From Limisphaerales bacterium (GTDB taxonomy: Bacteria > Verrucomicrobiota > Verrucomicrobiia > Limisphaerales > SXTU01): a DNA stretch of 55,551 bases. The notes under the pieces were generated by a model. That model saw nothing but the letters and a program-made list of their open reading frames with translations, had not been told where the DNA came from and did no database searches. The position numbers and the translations under genes were made by a program. Shown piece by piece: positions 123-47,884 of this stretch. Location: the NCBI GenBank assembly GCA_009773355.1, contig WRPG01000001.1, forward strand, positions 402,526 to 458,076. Direction: 5' to 3'. The stretch's first letter is position 1, and each line of letters opens with the position of its first letter.

Positions 123-2384
123 TCACGGGATGCTGAGAAACTCACTCGTGTTCAGCAGCGTGTGGCAAAGGTGCGCCATCGCCTGCTCGCGCGCGGCCCC
201 GGTGCCTTCCCCGGCCAGCAGCCTCCGGACGCCCTCCGCCTCGACGGCTTTGCGACACCAGTTCGCTTCCGCCGCCGTCGGCGGGCGCGAGAGCACCAGC
301 CGGAACGCGTGGACGATGCGCTCTGACGTGCCCGCTTCCGCCGCGCCGACGCGGGCGGCGAGCGCGTGGGCGGAATCCAGCACGAAGGCGTCGTTCAGCA
401 TCGTGAGCGACTGCGAGACGACTGCGCTCGGGCTTCGGCGGGAACAAGTCGCGTTGAGCGTGGGCTGGTCGAAGGTCGCGAGCAGCGACGGATGATAGTT
501 GCGGCGCTGGAGCAGGTAGAGGCTGCGACGGAACTGGTCCTCCGGCCGCCGCAGCGCGTCCGCGCGGACGACAACGGAGCCGTCGGTGAGATTGGTCGTG
601 AGGATGGGCGGCCCGCCGGGGGTGAGGTCCAGCCGGCCGCTGACGGTGAGCAGCTCGTCGCGAACCATTTCGGATTCGAGCCGGCGCAGCCGCTGGTGCG
701 AGAGCAGGCGGTTGTCGGGATCCGTCCGTTCCGCGCGCGCGGCCAAGGCGGGAGGCGGAGTGGCCGATTGTTGATACGTGGACGACTCAACAATGAGCCG
801 GACCAGCGGCTTCAGGCGCCAGCCGTTGCGGATGAACTCGCCGGCGAGCCAGTCGAGCAGCTCGGGATGCGAGGGCCGCGCTCCGGTGACCCCGAGGTTG
901 TCGCTGGTCTCGACGAGGCCGCGCCCAAAGAGCTGCTGCCAGACGCGGTTGACAAGCACGCGGGCGACGAGCGCTGACGCGCGGCTGTCCGGAGCGGTGA
1001 ACTGTCGGGCGAGGGCAAGGCGGCGGCCGGTGGCGGACGCAGGTTGGACACCTGCGCTCCGCAGCACGGCGGGCAGTGCGGGCTGCACTTGCTCCGCCGG
1101 CTTGTCGAACTCGCCACGGCGCAGGACGTGGACCGGCGGGGGCTGGCCGTGGTCATAGACGGCGTGGATGAGCGGCGGCGTCTTGCGGCGCACGTTCACG
1201 GCGGCGATGGCGCGGTCGAGCCGTTCCCACTCGGCCTTGTCCGCCGGCGTGAGCGTTGCCTTGAAGTCGTCGAGGCCCTGCCGGAGAAACCGCTCGAAGC
1301 GGCCCACGAGCCGGCGCTGGTCCTCGGTGCGCTTCTCGAAGGGCGTGCGCGCGGCGGCCTGCGCCTCGTCACGCAGCGCGGCGGGCACTTGTGGCAGGCG
1401 CGCTTCGAGGAACTGGTCGCGGTAGCGCTCGCGCATGGCCTGCTGCTGCTGGCGGAAGGCCTCGACCTCCTTGTCGAGCGCCGCGTTGTGGCGGTCGAAG
1501 TCGGCCTTGGCCGGCTTGGCAAGATCGGCGAGCACGCGGTCCTTGGGCTGCAGCCAGGCGGCGGGGTTGAATGCGGGCACAAAGTGGGCGAGCAGGCTGT
1601 AGTAATCGGCTTGGGAGACAGGCTCGTATTTGTGGTCGTGGCAGCGGGCGCAGTTGAGCGTGAGGCCGAGCAGGGTCTGACCGAGATTCTCAACCGTTTG
1701 CTGGAGGTGCGCGTGATGATTGGCTGCCGTGTTGATTTCGCTTTCGTCGGTATCGTCCGGGGCGACGCGCAGGAAGCCGGTGGCGACAAGCAGCGCGCGC
1801 ATCTCCCCGGTGAAGGTGTCGGCCCCGCGCCAGTCGGCCAGTTCGTCACCGGCGAGTTGTTCGAGCAGAAAGCGGTCGAAGGGCTTGTCGGCATTGAGCG
1901 ACTGCACGACATAGTCACGGTAGCGCCACTTGCCGTCGCCGAGCTTGATGGTGCCGGCGTCGTTGTCCATGCCCATCACATCCACGTAACCGGCGGCGTC
2001 AAGCCACCAGCGCGCCCAGCGCTCGCCGAATTGGGGCGAGGCGAGGAGTTCGCCAAGGCGCTGTCGGATGTTGGCTGCGGGAGACCGGGCTTGCTCCGCC
2101 GTGGGCGGCAGACCGGTGAGGTCGAAGCTGAGGCGACGGAACAAGACCGAAGGCGGCGCGGCGGGGGCAAGACGCAGGCCAGTGGCTTCCAGGCGCGCGA
2201 GCACGAAGGCATCCACCGGGTTGCGCACGCGGGACTTGTCCCTGACTGGAGGAATACCCTGCGGCGCGAGCGGCTGGAAGGCCCAGTGGTTGGTGGCGGC
2301 CGTAACGGGCGCGCTCCCGCTACGGCTGGCGAAACCAAGCAGCGCGCACAAGGTGAAGAGCGCGAGATGTTGCCGGGGCCGCAT
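123..2384 (-). CDS. DUF1549/DUF1553 (PSCyt2-PSD1) secreted protein
   Basis: A 753-residue protein of the family widespread in Planctomycetes and Verrucomicrobia, whose biochemical role is not settled; members often lie with DUF1501 or sulfatase genes in polysaccharide-degradation loci. The DUF1549 region spans about residues 50-270 and holds a CARCH motif (c-type-haem-like CxxCH, residues 245-249) followed by HDHKYEP. The DUF1553 region fills the C-terminal half, with [14 protein letters not shown] and a DNLGVTG segment. The N-terminal PSCyt1 haem domain found in many relatives is absent. I start at the ATG at 2384 because it gives a signal peptide ([20 protein letters not shown]); the open frame runs to 2528 but the extra codons come from palindrome A. 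Residues about 442-449 (SAGVQPAS) are encoded by half of the same palindrome, inserted in the linker before GRRLALARQ. Family assignment is secure; function is not. Confidence 0.9.
1038..1060. repeat. Half copy of palindrome A inside a coding region
   Basis: CGCAGGTTGGACACCTGCGC followed by TCC matches the right arm of the 67-bp palindrome at 2456-2522, without its partner arm. It is read in frame in the DUF1553 part of the leftward gene, at a place where this family has a variable linker. Confidence 0.75.
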
Positions 2385-2455: not shown

Positions 2456-2522
2456 GGAGCGCAGGTGTCCAACCTGCGCGATGTCGCCCGCTTTCAACGC
2501 GCAGGTTGGACACCTGCGCTCC
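2456..2522. repeat. Palindromic element A, full 67-bp copy
   Basis: Two perfectly complementary 25-bp arms (2456-2480 and 2498-2522; left arm begins GGAGCGCAGGTGTCCAACCT) enclose a 17-nt loop. It lies 2 nt past the MarR stop and about 70 nt before the DUF1549 start, so it would form a strong hairpin in a read-through transcript. A second full copy of equal length and loop size is at 47741-47807. Confidence 0.9.
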
Positions 2523-2524
2523 TT

Positions 2525-3025
2525 TCACTTGCCGCGCTTCGGGGATTGCTCGGCGGCTTCGCGGCAGGCGTCGGCGACGGCGGCGAGTTGGGTGAGGAAG
2601 TCTTCGCGCTTGGCTTCCGGCAGCACGGTGAGCACACCCGCCTGCAACTCGACGGCGAGCTGGCGCAATTCCAGATAGAGGTGTTTGCCTGAGGCTTTCA
2701 GCCGGATGCGGTAGGCGCGGCGGTCCTTCTCGTGCGGACGGCGTTCAACCCAGCCGGCGGCTTCCATGCGTTCGACGAGCGACGCGATGGTGTTCGGGTC
2801 GCTACTCATCATCTGCGTCAGCTCGCCCTGCGTGATGCCCTTGGGGTCGGCCTCGGTGAGGCAGCGCAACGCGGTGAACTGGTCGGGCGTGGCGCCCGTG
2901 TGCGCGATGCGGCGGCGGAAGGCCTGGTTCAGCCCATACCACGCGCGGCGCAGCAGCGGCGGCAGCCGGCGGCGGTCGGGCGAGTCAATCGGCGGGGCGG
3001 GTTTTGAATGTTTCCGGGCGGCCAT
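2525..3025 (-). CDS. MarR-family transcriptional regulator
   Basis: A 166-residue winged-helix regulator. The recognition part lies at about residues 47-110: FTALRCLTEADPKGITQGEL, then NTIASLVERMEAAGWVERRP, then a wing with the family's DRRA signature (HEKDRRAYRIRL). Flanking helices at both ends would form the dimer interface, and the length is normal for MarR proteins. The start ATG at 3025 has no longer alternative. It is divergent from the PQQ-like gene at 3194 across a 168-bp gap that holds an inverted repeat, so it probably represses itself and possibly its divergent neighbours. The ligand is unknown. The N-terminus is unusually basic (MAARKHSKPAPP). Confidence 0.9.
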   Translation of the reverse strand: MAARKHSKPAPPIDSPDRRRLPPLLRRAWYGLNQAFRRRIAHTGATPDQFTALRCLTEADPKGITQGELTQMMSSDPNTIASLVERMEAAGWVERRPHEKDRRAYRIRLKASGKHLYLELRQLAVELQAGVLTVLPEAKREDFLTQLAAVADACREAAEQSPKRGK

Positions 3026-38450: not shown

Positions 38451-38727
38451 AACGGTTTGAGAGCGGTGGAAAGGGTCGGCGAACTCCGGTGGCAGAAATT
38501 TGACGCAAGGGCGCAAAGACGCAGGGACGCAAAGAACTGGGAGCTTCTTGGACTGCGGTGGCAGAGCGCAGCGGCGACACCGCTTTGGTTTCCCGCGGAG
38601 CGGAAGCCTTCCGCCGCGCGACGACTGCTCCGCAGAATGGAAAAGCGGCGTGGCGCTTCGCTTCCCGCCGCAGTCCAAACTGCGTCTCTGCGCCTTTGCG
38701 TCTTTGCGTTGAATGTGGCCTCGAGGT
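38451..38727. other. Longest gap in the large operon, filled by element F
   Basis: This 277-nt spacer separates the SurA-like gene from the giant gene. About half of it is palindromic element F. To the left of that (38500-38547) and right (38679-38712) are short repeats with GCAAAGACGCA / TGCGTCTTTGCG character, which may form an outer stem. No gene is seen. A promoter for the giant gene could lie here; I cannot point to one. Confidence 0.5.
38548..38678. repeat. Palindromic element F, full 131-bp copy
   Basis: TTGGACTGCGGTGGCAGAGC at the left and its inverse (..CCCGCCGCAGTCCAA) at the right form imperfect terminal arms of about 38 bp around an inner CGGAAGCCTTCCG palindrome. A 58-bp half copy at 44540-44597 is identical at 57 positions in opposite orientation. 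A fragment is at 14506-14533. Confidence 0.85.
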
Positions 38728-39585
38728 TCATGGATTTGTCCGCGCCTGCGCGGTCAGCCAGTCATCGAAACTCAGCCGCGAAATCTCCACGGCCTGCACC
38801 GTGAGCGCTTCGCCGGTGCGGCTGGCGGCCACGTAAAGGGTGAAGCTCTCGTCCGAGCCGAAGACCGCGCTCACGTCGCCGGGCTTCTGCAACTGCGCGG
38901 CGAGCACCTTCTGCATGTCGGCGTGCAGGTCGGAGAAATACGCCTTGGGCATTGCCGCTCCGAGCGACGGGCGCGCGGAGGCAAGGTCCGTCTTGGGCTT
39001 CGCGCCGAGCTGCCACGTCACCTCGCGCACATCGTTGCGGCTCTTGAGCAAGGCGGCGCGCTCGTCCGCCTTCGCCGCGAGCAACTGCGCCCGCAGTTTC
39101 TCCGCCTCAGCGCGCTTGCCGGCCTGCTGCGCCGCGTCCGCCTCGAAGCGGGCGCGCAGCACGCGGTCCACCACCAGCGGCTTGGCCACGCTGCGGGCGA
39201 AGCGCTCGGGGTTGTTCGCCAGCGACAGCTTGATCTGCGCGAGCATGTCGCCCGCCATCGTGGAACGCTCGATGCGCGCGACTTCCTCCGCCACGAGCTT
39301 CGGGGTGATTTCGAGGCGATAGACATTCTTGAGCACGCGCTCCTTGAGCAGTTCCTGCTGCACGCGCCGCTCGATGACCGAGCGCGACACGGCCTGCTCG
39401 AACGGAGCCTTGGCCCCGACCTGCTTCGCGTAATAAACCCGCTCGACCGCGAGCCGGTCATCCACCAACTCGCCCACGGAGGCGGCGAAGGCGGGCAGGG
39501 CGAGGGCGAGCAACGCGATGAGGAGCGCGGCCCTCCGGGCCGCAGCGGCAACTTGCGCAGCGGGGCGGACAGATGCCCGAGGCAT
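38728..39585 (-). CDS. SurA/parvulin-like periplasmic protein
   Basis: A 285-residue exported protein (from the ATG at 39585; signal core RRAALLIALLALALPAFAA). Residues about 37-130 look like the helical SurA N-terminal chaperone region (VGELVDDRLAVERVYYAKQV; VIERRVQQELLKERVLKNVY). A second helical stretch (AQQAGKRAEAEKLRAQLLAA) follows. The last 80 residues recall a degenerate parvulin (LQKPGDVSAVFGSDESFTLY, then VAASRTG), although the canonical active-site histidines are not seen. It could chaperone the large beta-rich proteins of this operon. The frame is open up to an ATG at 39954 that overlaps the Kelch stop (ATGA) and would add 123 residues encoded by elements G, D and B. The 39585 start lies inside element B, so even the signal peptide is partly repeat-derived. 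Confidence 0.6.
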   Translation of the reverse strand: MPRASVRPAAQVAAAARRAALLIALLALALPAFAASVGELVDDRLAVERVYYAKQVGAKAPFEQAVSRSVIERRVQQELLKERVLKNVYRLEITPKLVAEEVARIERSTMAGDMLAQIKLSLANNPERFARSVAKPLVVDRVLRARFEADAAQQAGKRAEAEKLRAQLLAAKADERAALLKSRNDVREVTWQLGAKPKTDLASARPSLGAAMPKAYFSDLHADMQKVLAAQLQKPGDVSAVFGSDESFTLYVAASRTGEALTVQAVEISRLSFDDWLTAQARTNP

Positions 39586-39628
39586 TTCGGTGTCGGGGTG
39601 GCCGCTGCGGGCGGGACGCCCGCGCTCC
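39522..39628. repeat. Palindromic element B, copy 1 (107 bp)
   Basis: GGAGCGCGGCCCTCCGGGCC at one end and GGCGGGACGCCCGCGCTCC at the other, with an inner GCCGCAGCGGCAAC / GCCGCTGCGG pair. It matches 44155-44261 over the same length. Read leftward it encodes ERGRPARSGHPDTE and then QVAAAARRAAL, the start of the signal-peptide core of the SurA-like protein. Confidence 0.85.
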
Positions 39629-39684
39629 GGGACGGCCACGAACTCAGACGGCTGGCCGACATCGCCGATGGCAGGCATCTGCGC

Positions 39685-39787
39685 GAAGCGTCTGGAGTGC
39701 GGACGCTTCAGCGCCGCTGTCCGAACCGTGCTGACCACAGGGACGCCTCCAAAAGCGGTGCTGAAGCCACCGCAGTCCAGACGCTCC
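39685..39787. repeat. Palindromic element D, copy 1 (103 bp)
   Basis: Terminal inverted repeats of 28 bp (GAAGCGTCTGGAGTGCGGAC.. and ..CCGCAGTCCAGACGCTCC) pair with about 5 mismatches around an internal 47-nt segment. Copy 2 (44414-44516) has the same length. Read leftward it encodes ERLDCGGFSTAFGG and TAALKRPHSRRF. Confidence 0.85.
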
Positions 39788-39828
39788 GCGACGCCGTGGC
39801 CCAGTGCGCGTCCAGCAGCGCCTTCGCG

Positions 39829-42190: not shown

Positions 42191-44650
42191 TCACGGCTTG
42201 GCGTAGAGGTAGGCGGGGCGGGGCGGGCGGTAGGAATAGACGGCGTTGTTGCCGCCGTCGTTCCAGAAGCCCATCCACATGAACTCGCTGCCGGTCCAGG
42301 TGTAGAAGATGTCGTGCAGGCGGCCGCCGCCGCCGGGGTTGGTGCCAACGAAGTTGTTGCCCGTCGCCAAGGGCGTCCAGGTGTCCGTCACGGGGTTGTA
42401 GCGCACACCATCACTCAGGCCGGTGGCCCCGTTGCCGCCGCCCCAGATGATCATCTCGTGGCCCGTCCACGCCACGAGCGGGCGGTAGCGCGCCGAGAGG
42501 GTGGCGGTGCCGGGGCTGATGAGTTTCCAAGTGTTGCTGACCGGGTTGTAGCGCGCGCCGCCATGCACGTTGCCGCCGTCATAGCCGCCGTAGATGATCA
42601 TCTCCGTGCCGGTCCAGACGGCACCTTGGAAATTCGCCTTGCCGTTGGGGTGGAACGGTATCGGTGTCCAGGTGTCGGTCGCCGGGTTGTAGCGGGCACC
42701 ATCGTCGAAATAGGTGCTACCCGTGTTGACACCGCCCTGAATGATCATCTCCGTTCCAGTCCAGACAGCGCAGGGATCATGACGGCCCGCAAGTGGACTG
42801 GCAGCTAGCAAACGCCAAGTGTCCGTGCTGGGATTGTAAGCCGCTCCATCATTCCACGAGATCCCTCCTGACGTCCCGCCCCAAACGATGAACTCGGTGC
42901 CGGTCCAGATGCTGGCGAAGCGGGTGCGATTGTCCGTGTATCCCGGCAGGGTGATCGCGGCCATGTTCGACCATTTGTCCGTGGCCGGGTCATAAAGCTT
43001 GCCGTCGCCCAGCGTGACGCTGCTAAACCCGCCCCAAACAATGACCTTGCTGCCTGTCCAAGCGGTTTGCATCTCACGGCGTGCACTTGGGGCATTGACG
43101 CTCGACATCACCGACCAAGTCCCCAGCGCCGGGTCGAAGATGCGGCCATCGTTGTAGTTGGCCGTGGCCCCCGCCGTGGTGCCACCCCAGATGATCCACT
43201 TGCTGCCCGTCCACGCCGACTGGCGGGCCTGTGATTCGCCGCTCCCAGCAATGGCGAAGCGCACGCCCGGCGCATTGGGCGCGCCGACGAACGCCTTAAC
43301 CTGGTAGGTGTCGCCGTCCAGCGTGGCCGGGCCGAGGTTCACGAAGCCCAGTGCGGTGAGTGTCGGGTTGTTCGCGTTGGTCGAGACCACGATGGCGCCG
43401 GAGCCGACGCCGCCGACCGTGGCCGCCAATGTGTTGACCGCGTTGGCGCTGATGGCCGAAGAGCCGACGGAGCCGTCCGCCAGCTCCGCCGTGGTGAGCG
43501 GCGCGGCGAGCTTCGCGCCCGTGAGCGCGCCGTCCGTGATCTGCGCCGCCGTGATGGTGCCGGTGAGCCGCACTGCCGAGACGGAGACGCCCGTGAGCTG
43601 CGCGCCGCTGCCGACGAAGTTGGTGGCCTTGAGCGTGCCGGAGATTTCCAGCGGGAAGGCCGGCGTGTTGGTGAGGTTCACGCCGAGGTTCGTGCCGGAG
43701 GCATTGACGAGGGACGTGCCGCCCGCGCCCACGAGCATCGTGGCCGCACCGCTGAACTGCGCGAAGGGCGACGCGAAGAACTGGATGCGCGGGCGAAGCT
43801 CCGCGCCCGTGCCCACCGTCACGCCGAGGAAGCGGTCCGAGGCGTCCGCGCCGGTGAAGACGGTGGCGAGGTGGTTGGTGAACGGCTCCGCGCCCACCGA
43901 CGCGCCGCCGCCCAGCAGCACGGTGTATTGCCCCTGCTCCACGACGACGGTCTGCGACTCGGCCCAGACGATGTCGCCGGACGTGGTGCCGGTGGCGTTG
44001 CGGTAGATGCGGAAGGTGAGGTTGGTCTTGAGCGGACTGGCGAGGCCGAGCGGCTGGCCGGCGGCGTCCGAGAGGAAGCCCTGGAAGGCCATCTTGCCGG
44101 GAGGCGTGGGCGTGGCGGCGAAGGCGGGGAGGGTGAGGGTGAGGAACACGGCAAGGAGCGCGGCCCTCCGGGCCGCAGCCGCAACTTGCGCAGAGAGGCA
44201 GGCGGATGTCCGAAGCCATTCTGTGCCGGGGTGGCCGCTGCGGGCGGGACGCCCGCGCTCCTGGTAGGGCGCGTCTGTCCCCAGCGCGCCGCTGAACCAT
44301 TCGGACACCCAACCGGCGCGCTGGGACAGACGCGCCCTACCAGCTTCGGGGTGAGGGAGAGCGGCAACGAACTCAGACGGCTGGCCGGCATCGCCAAGGG
44401 CAGGAGTCTGCGCGGAGCGTCTGGAGTGCGGACGCTTCAGCGCCGCTGTGGGAACCGTGCTGGCCACAGGAACGCCTCCAAAAGCGGTGCTAAAGCCACC
44501 GCAGTCCAGACGCTTCGCGACTCCGTTGCCTGGCGCGCGTTCCGCTCTGCGGGAAACCAAAGCGGTGTCGCCGCTGCGCTCTGCCACCGCAGTCCAAGAC
44601 GGTTTGGTGAATTCGTTGCTCATGTTCGGACGGGGTTGCGGGAAGTTCAT
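42191..44650 (-). CDS. Seven-bladed Kelch-like protein with repeat-encoded N-terminal extension
   Basis: An 819-residue frame. The signal core (AALLAVFLTLTLPAFAA) lies at residues 163-179. After it come the shared domain (KMAFQGFLSDAAGQPLG; FRIYRNATGTTSGDIVWAES), a tail-fibre-like stalk (LEISGTLKATNFVGSGAQLT) and seven Kelch units (WTGSKVIVWGG, WTGTEFIVWGG, WTGTEMIIYGG and others). The end is PRPAYLYAKP. Residues about 18-160 are encoded by four stacked palindromic elements (F half, D, E, B). No in-frame ATG occurs between codon 10 and the mature domain, so translation must start at the ATG at 44650 or 44623 and cross the repeats, or use a rare start such as the GTG inside element E (residue 115). 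It starts 6 nt after the preceding gene. Confidence 0.85.
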   Translation of the reverse strand: MNFPQPRPNMSNEFTKPSWTAVAERSGDTALVSRRAERAPGNGVAKRLDCGGFSTAFGGVPVASTVPTAALKRPHSRRSAQTPALGDAGQPSEFVAALPHPEAGRARLSQRAGWVSEWFSGALGTDAPYQERGRPARSGHPGTEWLRTSACLSAQVAAAARRAALLAVFLTLTLPAFAATPTPPGKMAFQGFLSDAAGQPLGLASPLKTNLTFRIYRNATGTTSGDIVWAESQTVVVEQGQYTVLLGGGASVGAEPFTNHLATVFTGADASDRFLGVTVGTGAELRPRIQFFASPFAQFSGAATMLVGAGGTSLVNASGTNLGVNLTNTPAFPLEISGTLKATNFVGSGAQLTGVSVSAVRLTGTITAAQITDGALTGAKLAAPLTTAELADGSVGSSAISANAVNTLAATVGGVGSGAIVVSTNANNPTLTALGFVNLGPATLDGDTYQVKAFVGAPNAPGVRFAIAGSGESQARQSAWTGSKWIIWGGTTAGATANYNDGRIFDPALGTWSVMSSVNAPSARREMQTAWTGSKVIVWGGFSSVTLGDGKLYDPATDKWSNMAAITLPGYTDNRTRFASIWTGTEFIVWGGTSGGISWNDGAAYNPSTDTWRLLAASPLAGRHDPCAVWTGTEMIIQGGVNTGSTYFDDGARYNPATDTWTPIPFHPNGKANFQGAVWTGTEMIIYGGYDGGNVHGGARYNPVSNTWKLISPGTATLSARYRPLVAWTGHEMIIWGGGNGATGLSDGVRYNPVTDTWTPLATGNNFVGTNPGGGGRLHDIFYTWTGSEFMWMGFWNDGGNNAVYSYRPPRPAYLYAKP
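44155..44261. repeat. Palindromic element B, copy 2 (107 bp)
   Basis: Same ends and length as copy 1 at 39522-39628, with about 20 scattered changes in the middle. Read leftward it encodes ERGRPARSGHPGTEWL and QVAAAARRAALL, running straight into the signal core of the Kelch gene. Confidence 0.85.
44261..44343. repeat. Palindromic element E (83 bp)
   Basis: CTGGTAGGGCGCGTCTGTCC.. (44261-44290) pairs with 44315-44343 over 29 bp with only a bulged C. The loop is 24 nt. It sits between elements B and D, whereas the other B-D pair (39522-39787) has no E. That makes it a clean insertion. Confidence 0.92.
44414..44516. repeat. Palindromic element D, copy 2 (103 bp)
   Basis: Same length and ends as copy 1 (39685-39787). 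Terminal inverted repeats GGAGCGTCTGGAGTGCGGAC and GTCCAGACGCTTC. Encodes KRLDCGGFSTAFGG and TAALKRPHSRRS in the Kelch frame. Confidence 0.85.
44540..44597. repeat. Half copy of palindromic element F
   Basis: Identical at 57 of 58 positions to the inverse of 38548-38605. It lacks the other half of the element. Encodes part of AERSGDTALVSRRAER in the Kelch frame. Confidence 0.85.
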
Positions 44651-44656
44651 GGCGCG

Positions 44657-47600
44657 TCAGGGCTGGTAGGAGAGCACAGTGCGGTCGAGGGCATCCTCCC
44701 ACGAACCGAAGGTGAGGAGCTGGGTGCCGGTCCAGGTGAAGGGCATGTTGCGCTGCTGGATAGGCGCAACGGGCAATGTGCCCACGATGCCGGTGACGGG
44801 ATCGTAGGTGATGCCCCCTTTGCCGCTGCGATTGACCATCCCGACCGCGTTGATGCCGCCGGCCCAGATGACCTTGGAGCCGGTCCACACGGCGGTGGCT
44901 TCCTGCGACCAAGTATATTGGCCGGTGTTGAAGGTGGTCCATGTGTCGGTCGCGGGGTTGTAGCGTCCGCCGGTGTTGAGGTCGGAACTGAGGTTGGTGT
45001 GGCCGAGGTAGCCGCCCCAGACAATCATCTCCGTGCCCGTCCAGACAGCGAGGGCCAAGCCGCGGCCAACCGGCGCGTTGACTGAACTCATCGGCGTCCA
45101 AGTGTTACTGGTGGGGTTGTAGCGCGCGCCGTCTGCGCGCGGTGTGCCAAAAATGCTGGCATTGGTGGTGCCACCCCAGACCAGCATCTCCGTGCCGGTC
45201 CAGACGGCGAGGTGGTCAGCCCGGTTGGTGAAGCCCACGGGCACGGCGGCCATCGCGGTCCAAGTGTCGGTCGCCGGGTTGTAGCGCGCCCCGTTGTTGG
45301 TCACGGTCATGCCGGTGGCGATGGCCCCGCCCCAAACGAGCATCTCCGTGCCGGTCCAGACCGCCGTGTGCCGGCAGCGGGCCGACAGCGCGCCGGTGGC
45401 GGTGATGTTGCTCCAAGTGTTGTTCGCCGGGAAGTAGCGCTTCCCGTCGCCGATGAAGTTGTTGGTGTAGCCGCCCCAGTAGATGGCCTGGTCGCCCGCC
45501 CACACTGCGGAGAACTGAGTGCGCGGGCTGGGCGCGTTGGTCGGCGACATCGGCTGCCAACTGTTGTTCGCCGGGTCGAAGGCGGCACCAGTGTTCAAAG
45601 CGATAAAAGGGCTGATGTAAGGAGCGGCAATCCCCCCCCAGACCAGCCACTTTGAGCCCGTCCAGACCGACCGGTGCGGCGTGCCACTGTAGTCGAAAAC
45701 ACTCGGCAGCGGTGCGTTGGGCGTGTCCTTGGTGGCGCGGATGGTCCAGTTGTCGGTGGGCGGGGTGGTCTTGGCGTAGAAATAACTTTCCGTCTCGGGC
45801 TTGAAGGAGAGCACCGTGCGGTCGTTGCCGTCGCGGAAGGTGGCGAAGGTCAGCAGCTCGGTGCCGGTCCAGGTGAACGGCATCCACGTCTGGGTGATGG
45901 GGGCGGCCGGGATGTAGTCGAATTTGTTGTTGGCGGGGTCGAAGCTGAAGCCACTGGTGTTACCGCCATCGTTGGGATAGCCACTGCTGTTCCGGCCCTG
46001 GAGAAAATAGGCTTTGGAACCGCTCCAAAAGGCCGCGCCTTCAATCCCTTGATTGAAGTTTGCAGTGTTGAACGGAATCCAGGTGTCCGAGGCCACGTCA
46101 TAACGGCCGCCATCGGTGTTCCACCCGCCACCAAACCCACCCCACACGATCAACTCCGTGCCAGTCCATACTGCGGCTGCCCCCTCGCGTGCAGAAGGCG
46201 CGCTGAAACTGCTCATGGAACGCCAAGTGTTGCTGACTGGGTTGTAAAGCGCCCCGTCCCGCTGGTAGACCCCTGCCGCCACGCCGCCCCAGACGAGAAC
46301 CTCGGTGCCAGTCCAGAAGGCGTTGTAGTCACGCCGGCCCGCGATGGGCGCGGCGGGCAGCGCGCGCCAGCCATTGGTCGCGAGGCTGTAGAGGCCGCCG
46401 TTGTTGGGGTTGTTGTTGATGTTGTTCACCAGTTCGCCGCCCCAGACGAACAGCTCGGAGCCGGTCCACACGCTGCGGTGCCGGTTGCGCGCCTGCGGCT
46501 CGTTCACGGTGCCCATGGGCGACCAAGTGTTCGCAACGGGGTCGTAAATCCTGCCATCAGCGTAGGGATTACCATCGTGGCCGCCCCAAAAAAGGCCCTT
46601 CGTGCCGGTCCAGATGAAGTTGATCTCGTTGCGCGGGGTCGGCGCGCCGACGGTGGAAATGGGTGTCCATGAGTTGAGCGCCGGGTCGAAGATACCTCCA
46701 TCCGTGGCGTAGCCACCAACGATGGAATCTCCCGAATACAGGATCCATTTGCTGCCGGTCCAAATCGTGGCGGCGGCGCGATGGTCGCTGCCGCCGATGC
46801 TGTTGATGCGCGACACGGGCGCGTTGGGCGTGTCCTTCGTGGCACGGATGGTCCACTTGGGGCCGTCGAAGTTCGCGCGGCCGATGTTGACGTAGCCCAT
46901 GTTGTGCAGCACGGGGTCGAGCTTCTTGGTGGAGACAATGACGCCGCCGTTGGGCACGCCGCCGGCCTGCGCGGCGAGGGCGAGGGCGGCGTCCGGCGCG
47001 AGCTTGGCGGCGGTGACGGCCTGGTTCGCCACGAGCGACGCGGCGATGGAGTTCGTGGCGAACTTCGCGCCCGTCACCGTGGCGTCCGCGAGGCGCGAGG
47101 CGTCGAAGGTGCCGGTGACATTCGCCGCCTGCACGGGCACGCCGGTGAGGCCCGAGCCATCGCCGATTAGCGCGGTGGCCTTCGCGGTGCCGCCCACGTC
47201 GAGCGTCGCGCCGGGCGCACCGGGCGTGTTGACGCCGACCGCGCCGGGCGCGGTGTTGAAGACGGGCTGGCCGCTGTTGTTGAGCAGGTTCGCCGTGGTG
47301 CGCGCGAGGTGCGCGAACGGCGAGGACAGGAACTGCATGCGCGGCGCAATCTCCGCGCCCTGCCCCACGACCGTGATGCCGAGGAAGCGGTCGGAGGCGT
47401 CCGAACCGAGGAAGAGGCTGGCAAGGTTGTTGGTGAAGAACTCACCCGCGACGCCGGTGGCGTTGCCCGCGCCGAGCAGCGCGTTGAAGAAGCCGCGCGT
47501 GACCTTCACGGTCTGCTTTTCCGCCCAGACCAAGTCGCCTGGCGTGGTCCCGGCCGCGCTGCGCCAGAGGCGGAATTGCACCTGCACGTTCGTCGTTGCC

Positions 47601-47884
47601 GTCTGCCCGAGCGGCACGCCGGCGGCATCGGTGAGGTGGCCCTGGAAGGTGAGGCGGCCCGGCGGGAACTGGTCGGCAGCGGAGGCGGTGAGCGTCGCTG
47701 CCGCCAGCAACGCGAGCAGCAGACCATGCGTCCGCGTGGTGGAGCGCAGGTGTCCAACCTGCGCGATGAGGCCCAACAGCAACGCGCAGGTGGGACACCT
47801 GCGCTCCGGCGAATTGCAGCCGCCCCGACGGGCGGTGGGAAGGAGATACGTTTCCATAGGTCGGTGAAAGTTCGCGCGGTTCAT
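44657..47884 (-). CDS. Double Kelch-like protein (2 x 7 blades)
   Basis: A 1,075-residue exported protein. The signal core (HGLLLALLAAATLTASAA) is at residues 53-70 and is preceded by palindrome A (residues about 26-48). The shared domain (GRLTFQGHLTDAAGVPLG) and stalk (ATLDVGGTAKATALIGDGSG) follow. The first set of seven Kelch units ends in ETESYFYAK, the usual C-terminus of its neighbours. A second WTIRATKDTPNAP block then opens another seven units that stop at DRTVLSYQP, without the final strand. This looks like a fusion of two Kelch genes in which the joint keeps an old C-terminus. The start may be the ATG at 47884 or at 47857. It begins 3 nt after the preceding gene. Confidence 0.85.
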   Translation of the reverse strand: MNRANFHRPMETYLLPTARRGGCNSPERRCPTCALLLGLIAQVGHLRSTTRTHGLLLALLAAATLTASAADQFPPGRLTFQGHLTDAAGVPLGQTATTNVQVQFRLWRSAAGTTPGDLVWAEKQTVKVTRGFFNALLGAGNATGVAGEFFTNNLASLFLGSDASDRFLGITVVGQGAEIAPRMQFLSSPFAHLARTTANLLNNSGQPVFNTAPGAVGVNTPGAPGATLDVGGTAKATALIGDGSGLTGVPVQAANVTGTFDASRLADATVTGAKFATNSIAASLVANQAVTAAKLAPDAALALAAQAGGVPNGGVIVSTKKLDPVLHNMGYVNIGRANFDGPKWTIRATKDTPNAPVSRINSIGGSDHRAAATIWTGSKWILYSGDSIVGGYATDGGIFDPALNSWTPISTVGAPTPRNEINFIWTGTKGLFWGGHDGNPYADGRIYDPVANTWSPMGTVNEPQARNRHRSVWTGSELFVWGGELVNNINNNPNNGGLYSLATNGWRALPAAPIAGRRDYNAFWTGTEVLVWGGVAAGVYQRDGALYNPVSNTWRSMSSFSAPSAREGAAAVWTGTELIVWGGFGGGWNTDGGRYDVASDTWIPFNTANFNQGIEGAAFWSGSKAYFLQGRNSSGYPNDGGNTSGFSFDPANNKFDYIPAAPITQTWMPFTWTGTELLTFATFRDGNDRTVLSFKPETESYFYAKTTPPTDNWTIRATKDTPNAPLPSVFDYSGTPHRSVWTGSKWLVWGGIAAPYISPFIALNTGAAFDPANNSWQPMSPTNAPSPRTQFSAVWAGDQAIYWGGYTNNFIGDGKRYFPANNTWSNITATGALSARCRHTAVWTGTEMLVWGGAIATGMTVTNNGARYNPATDTWTAMAAVPVGFTNRADHLAVWTGTEMLVWGGTTNASIFGTPRADGARYNPTSNTWTPMSSVNAPVGRGLALAVWTGTEMIVWGGYLGHTNLSSDLNTGGRYNPATDTWTTFNTGQYTWSQEATAVWTGSKVIWAGGINAVGMVNRSGKGGITYDPVTGIVGTLPVAPIQQRNMPFTWTGTQLLTFGSWEDALDRTVLSYQP
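47741..47807. repeat. Palindromic element A, second full copy (67 bp)
   Basis: Same length and arm sequence as 2456-2522, with one arm mismatch (T/G). The 17-nt loop keeps only its ends (ATG..GCCC..CAA). Here it is inside a coding region, encoding about ERRCPTCALLLGLIAQVGHLR, directly before the signal-peptide core. Confidence 0.9.

Follow-up and report, generated by a model that had tools for sequence, protein, structure and literature searches.

What the large palindromes at this locus are, and which part of them is conserved, is the question raised by the window analyzed here, a stretch of 55,551 nucleotides (positions 402,526 to 458,076 of contig C27) from the 6.16-Mb, 162-contig genome G000. 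Two 67-bp inverted repeats had been described in it, at 2456 to 2522 and 47741 to 47807, each with perfect 25-bp arms around a 17-nt loop. Both are present, and their loop sequences do differ when compared. The arms of the first match perfectly over 25 nt around a loop of 17 nt, but those of the second differ at one position in 25, so that it is not perfect. Read as 24-nt arms, the first pair consists of a left arm on the forward strand (2456 to 2479), made of a GGAG tag and a hairpin, a 19-nt spacer (2480 to 2498), and an inverted right arm on the reverse strand (2499 to 2522). It lies 2 nt behind the called stop codon of a MarR-family regulator gene (2525 to 3025, reverse strand; Pfam MarR) and 71 nt before the start of a gene for a DUF1549/DUF1553 protein (126 to 2384, reverse strand; Pfam PSCyt2 and PSD1). 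The second pair (left arm, 47741 to 47764, forward; spacer, 47765 to 47783; right arm, 47784 to 47807, reverse, with one mismatch to the left arm) is crossed near the N terminus by the open reading frame (ORF) of a Kelch-repeat protein (44657 to 47884, reverse strand). The earlier note placed this copy in a signal-peptide region; it does fall within the ORF, upstream of or inside that region, depending on where the protein truly starts. The half copy noted in the DUF1549/DUF1553 protein is indeed read in frame, as SAGVQPA, but it is a single arm spanning 1037 to 1060 (reverse strand) rather than 1038 to 1060.

The window palindromes are real and beyond chance. With up to 3 mismatches allowed, a 21-nt pattern matched 8 times where 1.34 matches were expected, and none of 100 shuffles reached 8. 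The palindromes fold as RNA at −56 to −58 kcal/mol (z about −9 to −11), and an Rfam search of the window returned two tRNAs only, with no match at the palindromes. Other inverted repeats in the window (38546 to 38605, 39481 to 39816, and 44114 to 44599), of the TCTTGGACTGCGGTGGCAGAGCGCAGCGG type with 60-nt arms that are 98% complementary, lie between or in Kelch genes.

With up to 2 mismatches allowed, the host genome contains 150 occurrences of the 24-mer GGAGCGCAGGTGTCCAACCTGCGC and none of the reversed control. Each of 10 congeners has 0 to 3 copies, and one copy was found in 3 of 47 other genomes of the order. The exact 23-mer was also present in seven other public contigs, five of them titled Verrucomicrobia or Akkermansia and two "bacterium," and the paired copies there likewise have unrelated spacers. 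Within 1,587,740 bases of G000, 148 arms were identified, of which 6 stand alone and the others form 71 head-to-head pairs; an arm exceeding 4 mismatches was counted only if it had a perfect stem with a GTCC loop. The sampled regions were chosen partly for holding copies, so that copy densities are not unbiased. Among 50 close pairs, 49 point inward, 1 is tandem, and none points outward. The spacer is exactly 19 nt in 47 of the 71 pairs, and its sequence is unrelated between most copies; about six copies form one subfamily with a common spacer and flanks. The same 1.59 Mb also contains further palindromic families of the GCCGACGTGAGGAGGC, GTGCCGGCGACTTGCA, CGGACGCCCACGTCCG (GGAG tagged as well), and CAACCTTCAGGTTGCG types.

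Alignment of the arms defines what is conserved. The repeat unit is 24 nt long and is made up of a GGAG tag and a small hairpin, CGCAGGT-GTCCA-ACCTGCG, with a 7-bp stem and the loop GTCCA. Over 148 arms, GGAG and GTCC have column conservations of 0.98 to 1.0 (0.99 to 1.0 for GGAG itself), and the 24th base, which is free to vary, reaches only 0.62. Mean identity is 0.94 among arms and 0.44 among the spacers (calculated on the 47 spacers of 19 nt only), against 0.42 for shuffled cores, which contradicts the opposite pattern of conserved loops and variable arms. The earlier description of conserved arms around a drifting loop thus stands as regards the arms and the fixed loop length, but loops of equal length are mostly unrelated, which goes beyond drift. 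Covariation falls within each arm. Positions 8 and 20 pair as A-T in 116 cases and C-G in 22, with 4 others, and positions 11 and 17 as T-A in 117 and A-T in 19, with 6 others (142 arms in 71 pairs for both); the stem variants AGGT/ACCT, AGGA/TCCT, and CGGT/ACCG accordingly covary within a single arm. The left and right arms are identical in only 26 of the 71 pairs, at least one mismatch being present in the other 45. Pairs of mixed arm type number 32 of 60, against 33.3 ± 2.4 expected from random pairing, 11 pairs whose spacers contain CTGAAC/GTTCAG having been set aside for this count. The conserved unit is therefore the 24-nt tagged hairpin and not the 25-bp stem. Because so few pairs have identical arms and arm types mix as if at random, the long stem is a by-product of two like units being paired; it does not hold up as the conserved entity that it was first taken for.

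The 71 pairs are distributed as 37 between tandem genes, 12 between convergent genes, 7 between divergent genes, 11 within genes, and 4 at overlaps or edges. By our own home-made gene caller, pair edges 0 to 10 nt from a codon were seen in 29 of 61 cases facing a stop, compared with 5 of 51 facing a start. Arms within genes contain no stop in the frame that is read, and 8 of those 11 pairs are 67 bp long, the modal length and one that is not divisible by three (3n+1). In keeping with a prediction made for the half copy, none of six close DUF1553 orthologues (L109 to L114), about 65% identical and aligned over the site, has the SAGVQPAS motif; they provide no clean empty site, since the linker is variable and several have inserts of their own. 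Linkers filled by differing palindromic inserts in different species of the genus were seen in DadA (L122 to L134), GT2 (L084 to L095), spermidine-synthase-like (L096 to L107), and DUF1553 (L109 to L114) genes, some of the linkers being empty. The GT2 and spermidine-synthase-like genes, named from sequence, were set aside as empty-site cases because in relatives that linker contains other palindromes; two further intragenic cases, in large proteins with no family name (C132a and C139), were not decisive, relatives having other inserts or being unmatched. The names DadA, MurG, and racemase used here, and the kinship of orthologues, come from sequence and reciprocal likeness rather than from a family search.

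A transposase gene of the RAYT type provides the link to mobility. Pfam Y1_Tnp had three matches in G000, one of them to a RAYT gene at 165,092 to 165,646 of contig C27, the contig that holds the window. That gene is flanked by the GGAG repeat on both sides (L022/L156), and the 185-residue query has, as judged by eye, the motifs NHVH, WQ, and YIENNP. In G000 its reading frame is continuous with that of a proline racemase, and its expression may therefore be abnormal. The single ORF (L022:109-1908; about 163.95 to 165.75 kb of C27) joins the RAYT and a proline racemase/hydroxyproline-epimerase-like protein via a REP pair; in relatives, the racemase ends with an Arg codon and then a stop. The racemase-DadA loci of relatives contain the racemase and DadA genes and gave no RAYT match. 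In the order as a whole, 157 of 245 genomes contain RAYT homologs. Among 30 RAYT loci, hairpins that carry the GGAG tag on a wide variety of stems adjoin the gene on at least one side in 20 and on both sides in 10. The remaining 10 loci have none by the same 6-bp-stem test, in which flanks were partly masked by fixed RAYT boundaries; under a strict 7-bp stem, GGAG lay on both sides in 5 of 30. Of all 256 tags, GGAG ranks first beside RAYTs, and the next two, GAGC and AGCG, are shifted registers of GGAG. GTAG scored 0 in the 30 loci, with two-sided hairpins in none of them. A second G000 RAYT (L023, at 210 kb of C27) is flanked by a GTAG-CTCGACATTCCAATGTCGAG repeat and served as an internal control; the 1.59 Mb contain about 50 copies of the core 16-mer of that CTCGACATTCCAATGTCGAG repeat. 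At the RAYT locus of another genome, G020 (L176), a run of N lies inside a repeat cluster upstream of the RAYT. Some relatives, such as G001, have the repeat with no detectable RAYT of this type, and G003 has a marginal RAYT match only.

Three features known from REPINs and REPtrons are found here: a hairpin tagged by a tetranucleotide, many inverted head-to-head pairs, and a RAYT flanked by its cognate repeat. The tag itself is GGAG, and this repeat carries neither the GTAG (or GYRG/GTMG) tag of the GTAG superfamily nor the CGTC tag of the CGTC superfamily; the system belongs to a GGAG class rather than to either described class. As the RAYT is flanked by the repeat and related RAYTs lie beside GGAG hairpins with other stems, we conclude that the palindromes of the window are very probably REPIN-like head-to-head pairs, with the tags outside, that have been spread by a RAYT of the Y1 family acting on single strands. 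The C27 RAYT would recognize GGAG and the small hairpin and move them. The pairs survive chiefly right after stop codons and in linkers of proteins that tolerate them, the reading frame staying open there, and their strong hairpins may have a secondary role in shaping mRNA 3′ ends, though not as classical intrinsic terminators. The earlier note had proposed selection on, or copying of, the stem. Copying is supported for the GGAG repeat, through the RAYT link, and selection on the long stem is not.

Selection on the long stem would be expected of a functional RNA element at 3′ ends, a bidirectional terminator or an mRNA stabilizer, and the very stable fold, the nearness of pairs to stop codons, and the filling of convergent gaps speak for such a role. 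It is nevertheless improbable. The sequence and small hairpin are conserved rather than the long stem, 11 of the 71 pairs lie within genes, Rfam gave no match, and the T-run of a classical intrinsic terminator is lacking, with 1.96 T per 10 nt behind the hairpins against a background of 1.70. A miniature inverted-repeat element with target-site duplication was also considered and rejected. Perfect flanking direct repeats among the 71 pairs were limited to 2 nt in four and 3 nt in three, with none of 4 to 10 nt, and flank identity was near that of shuffled pairs, slightly higher at 4, 8, and 9 nt.

If the REPIN-like reading is taken, what moves may be either the whole pair or the arms alone. 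The whole pair could have been copied as an ordinary REPIN unit, after which the arms would be maintained as, or converted to, the prevailing family type as the spacers drift, a course of events that we consider quite possible, if short of probable. At several loci, the position is occupied in relatives by a different palindrome or by GGAG hairpins whose stems differ, so that either sites are hit repeatedly or arms are rewritten in place. Whole-pair copying fits same-site elements whose stems differ between species (the C159, C44, and C109 loci), an orthologous pair at C110 with arms decayed in G003 and intact in G000, and a site at C57 where G000 and G003 share the same arms around unrelated spacers. 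It also fits a pair at the racemase end that is common to G000 and a distant metagenome-assembled genome (racemase 70% identical), in which the spacers are related and the arm types differ; the examined racemase locus of that genome gave no RAYT match. Highly diverse spacers are, moreover, general for REPINs in the accessible text of PMC8049555. However, spacer drift to saturation should have altered length more than is seen, given the 47 spacers of exactly 19 nt, random pairing of arm types is not predicted by whole-pair copying, and a 67-bp unit would break intragenic frames unless compensated. In the other course, the RAYT would insert one single-stranded hairpin of 24 nt per strand, at nicks separated by 19 nt, leaving host DNA as the spacer, a lone half copy then being an insertion into one strand only. 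We entertain this possibility tentatively. It accounts for spacers that are equal in length and unrelated in sequence, and for the random combination of arm types. Two 24-nt arms sum to a multiple of three, and frames that contain a 67-bp pair match orthologues on both sides, so the net addition was a multiple of three. What is informative here is only that the whole unit is not divisible by three, since removing 48 nt keeps an open frame open by arithmetic.

The clearest case for insertion of the arms alone is MurG (C69:2892). With the arms removed, the conserved blocks are 35 residues apart, where relatives have 35 (three), 36 (five), or 29 (one); nine relatives were read, and a tenth, G007, missed by the motif, is known by match length only. 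Removing all 67 bp breaks the frame, and with no target duplication to mend it, arms-only insertion is favored there. For the idea in general, a pair in G007 also counts, its spacer resembling the G000 sequence at the empty site (p about 0.02). Against this, the MurG spacer similarity is weak, being matched by 5 of 92 other spacers and 21 of 300 shuffles, the 29 residues of the G003 MurG fit a whole-unit insertion with a 1-nt loss, and comparison of spacers with host sequence over seven intergenic loci was null. In DadA, with a 39-nt spacer, excision of the arms alone leaves about 11 residues too many and excision of the whole about 2 too few, a better fit to whole insertion, and a GGAG unit in the DadA of G005 lengthens the gene by 78 nt relative to empty relatives, which have nothing there. 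The copies of the small subfamily, about six, must also have moved as longer units, because they share spacer and flanks. The full proposal, that a GGAG-class RAYT inserts paired 24-nt hairpins around host DNA and that arms of eight codons keep reading frames intact, is accordingly put forward with somewhat greater reserve still.

Much of this architecture has precedent. The accessible parts of PMC3116915, PMC3733652, PMC8049555, PMC6006769, and PMC8266576 describe REPs whose tagged hairpins form inverted pairs around diverse spacers, flank RAYTs, lie close to stop codons, and occur within genes. In the portion of PMC3116915 consulted, the REPINs of Pseudomonas fluorescens SBW25 are inverted pairs of short palindromes at fixed spacing with a less conserved spacer, mostly extragenic, with a RAYT flanked by the repeat; the present family differs in its GGAG tag, its mostly unrelated 19-nt spacers, its random arm pairing, and its repeated intragenic placement. 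The GTAG and CGTC superfamilies, which include Opitutus terrae of the Verrucomicrobia, similarly combine a tag with a small stem-loop in head-to-head dimers and have subfamilies with alternative complementary stem bases, copies close to stop codons, and intragenic copies, but the tags given in the available text of PMC3733652 are GTAG, GYAG, GYRG, GTRG, GTMG, GTGG, and CGTC, not GGAG. The by-eye motifs of the C27 RAYT agree with those of TnpAREP subclass 2.4 (NH[IFV]H, WQ, and YIxNNP), although the canonical subclasses in the sections seen of PMC6006769 have GT[AG]G tags. The Rickettsia palindromic elements, as cited in PMC3733652, are also palindromic repeats in frame within protein genes, but of other sequence and tag, and the passage on them that was available reports no RAYT link. 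As a REP tag, GGAG was not found as a word start in PMC3733652, PMC8266576, PMC6006769, PMC2817692, or PMC3686654, a search for which subscription literature was mostly outside the scope; within-word text searches show that GGAG does occur inside longer strings in other papers.

The spread of REP repeats is described as still poorly understood in the part of PMC8266576 that was accessible. With near-perfect arms, random combination of arm types, and unrelated spacers of fixed length, this family makes the transposed unit directly testable. The GTAG guide sequence has been studied in TnpAREP; the GGAG class supplies a naturally occurring variant of it and offers many RAYT and stem pairs in one bacterial order, in which protein linkers are shown to be repeated landing sites.
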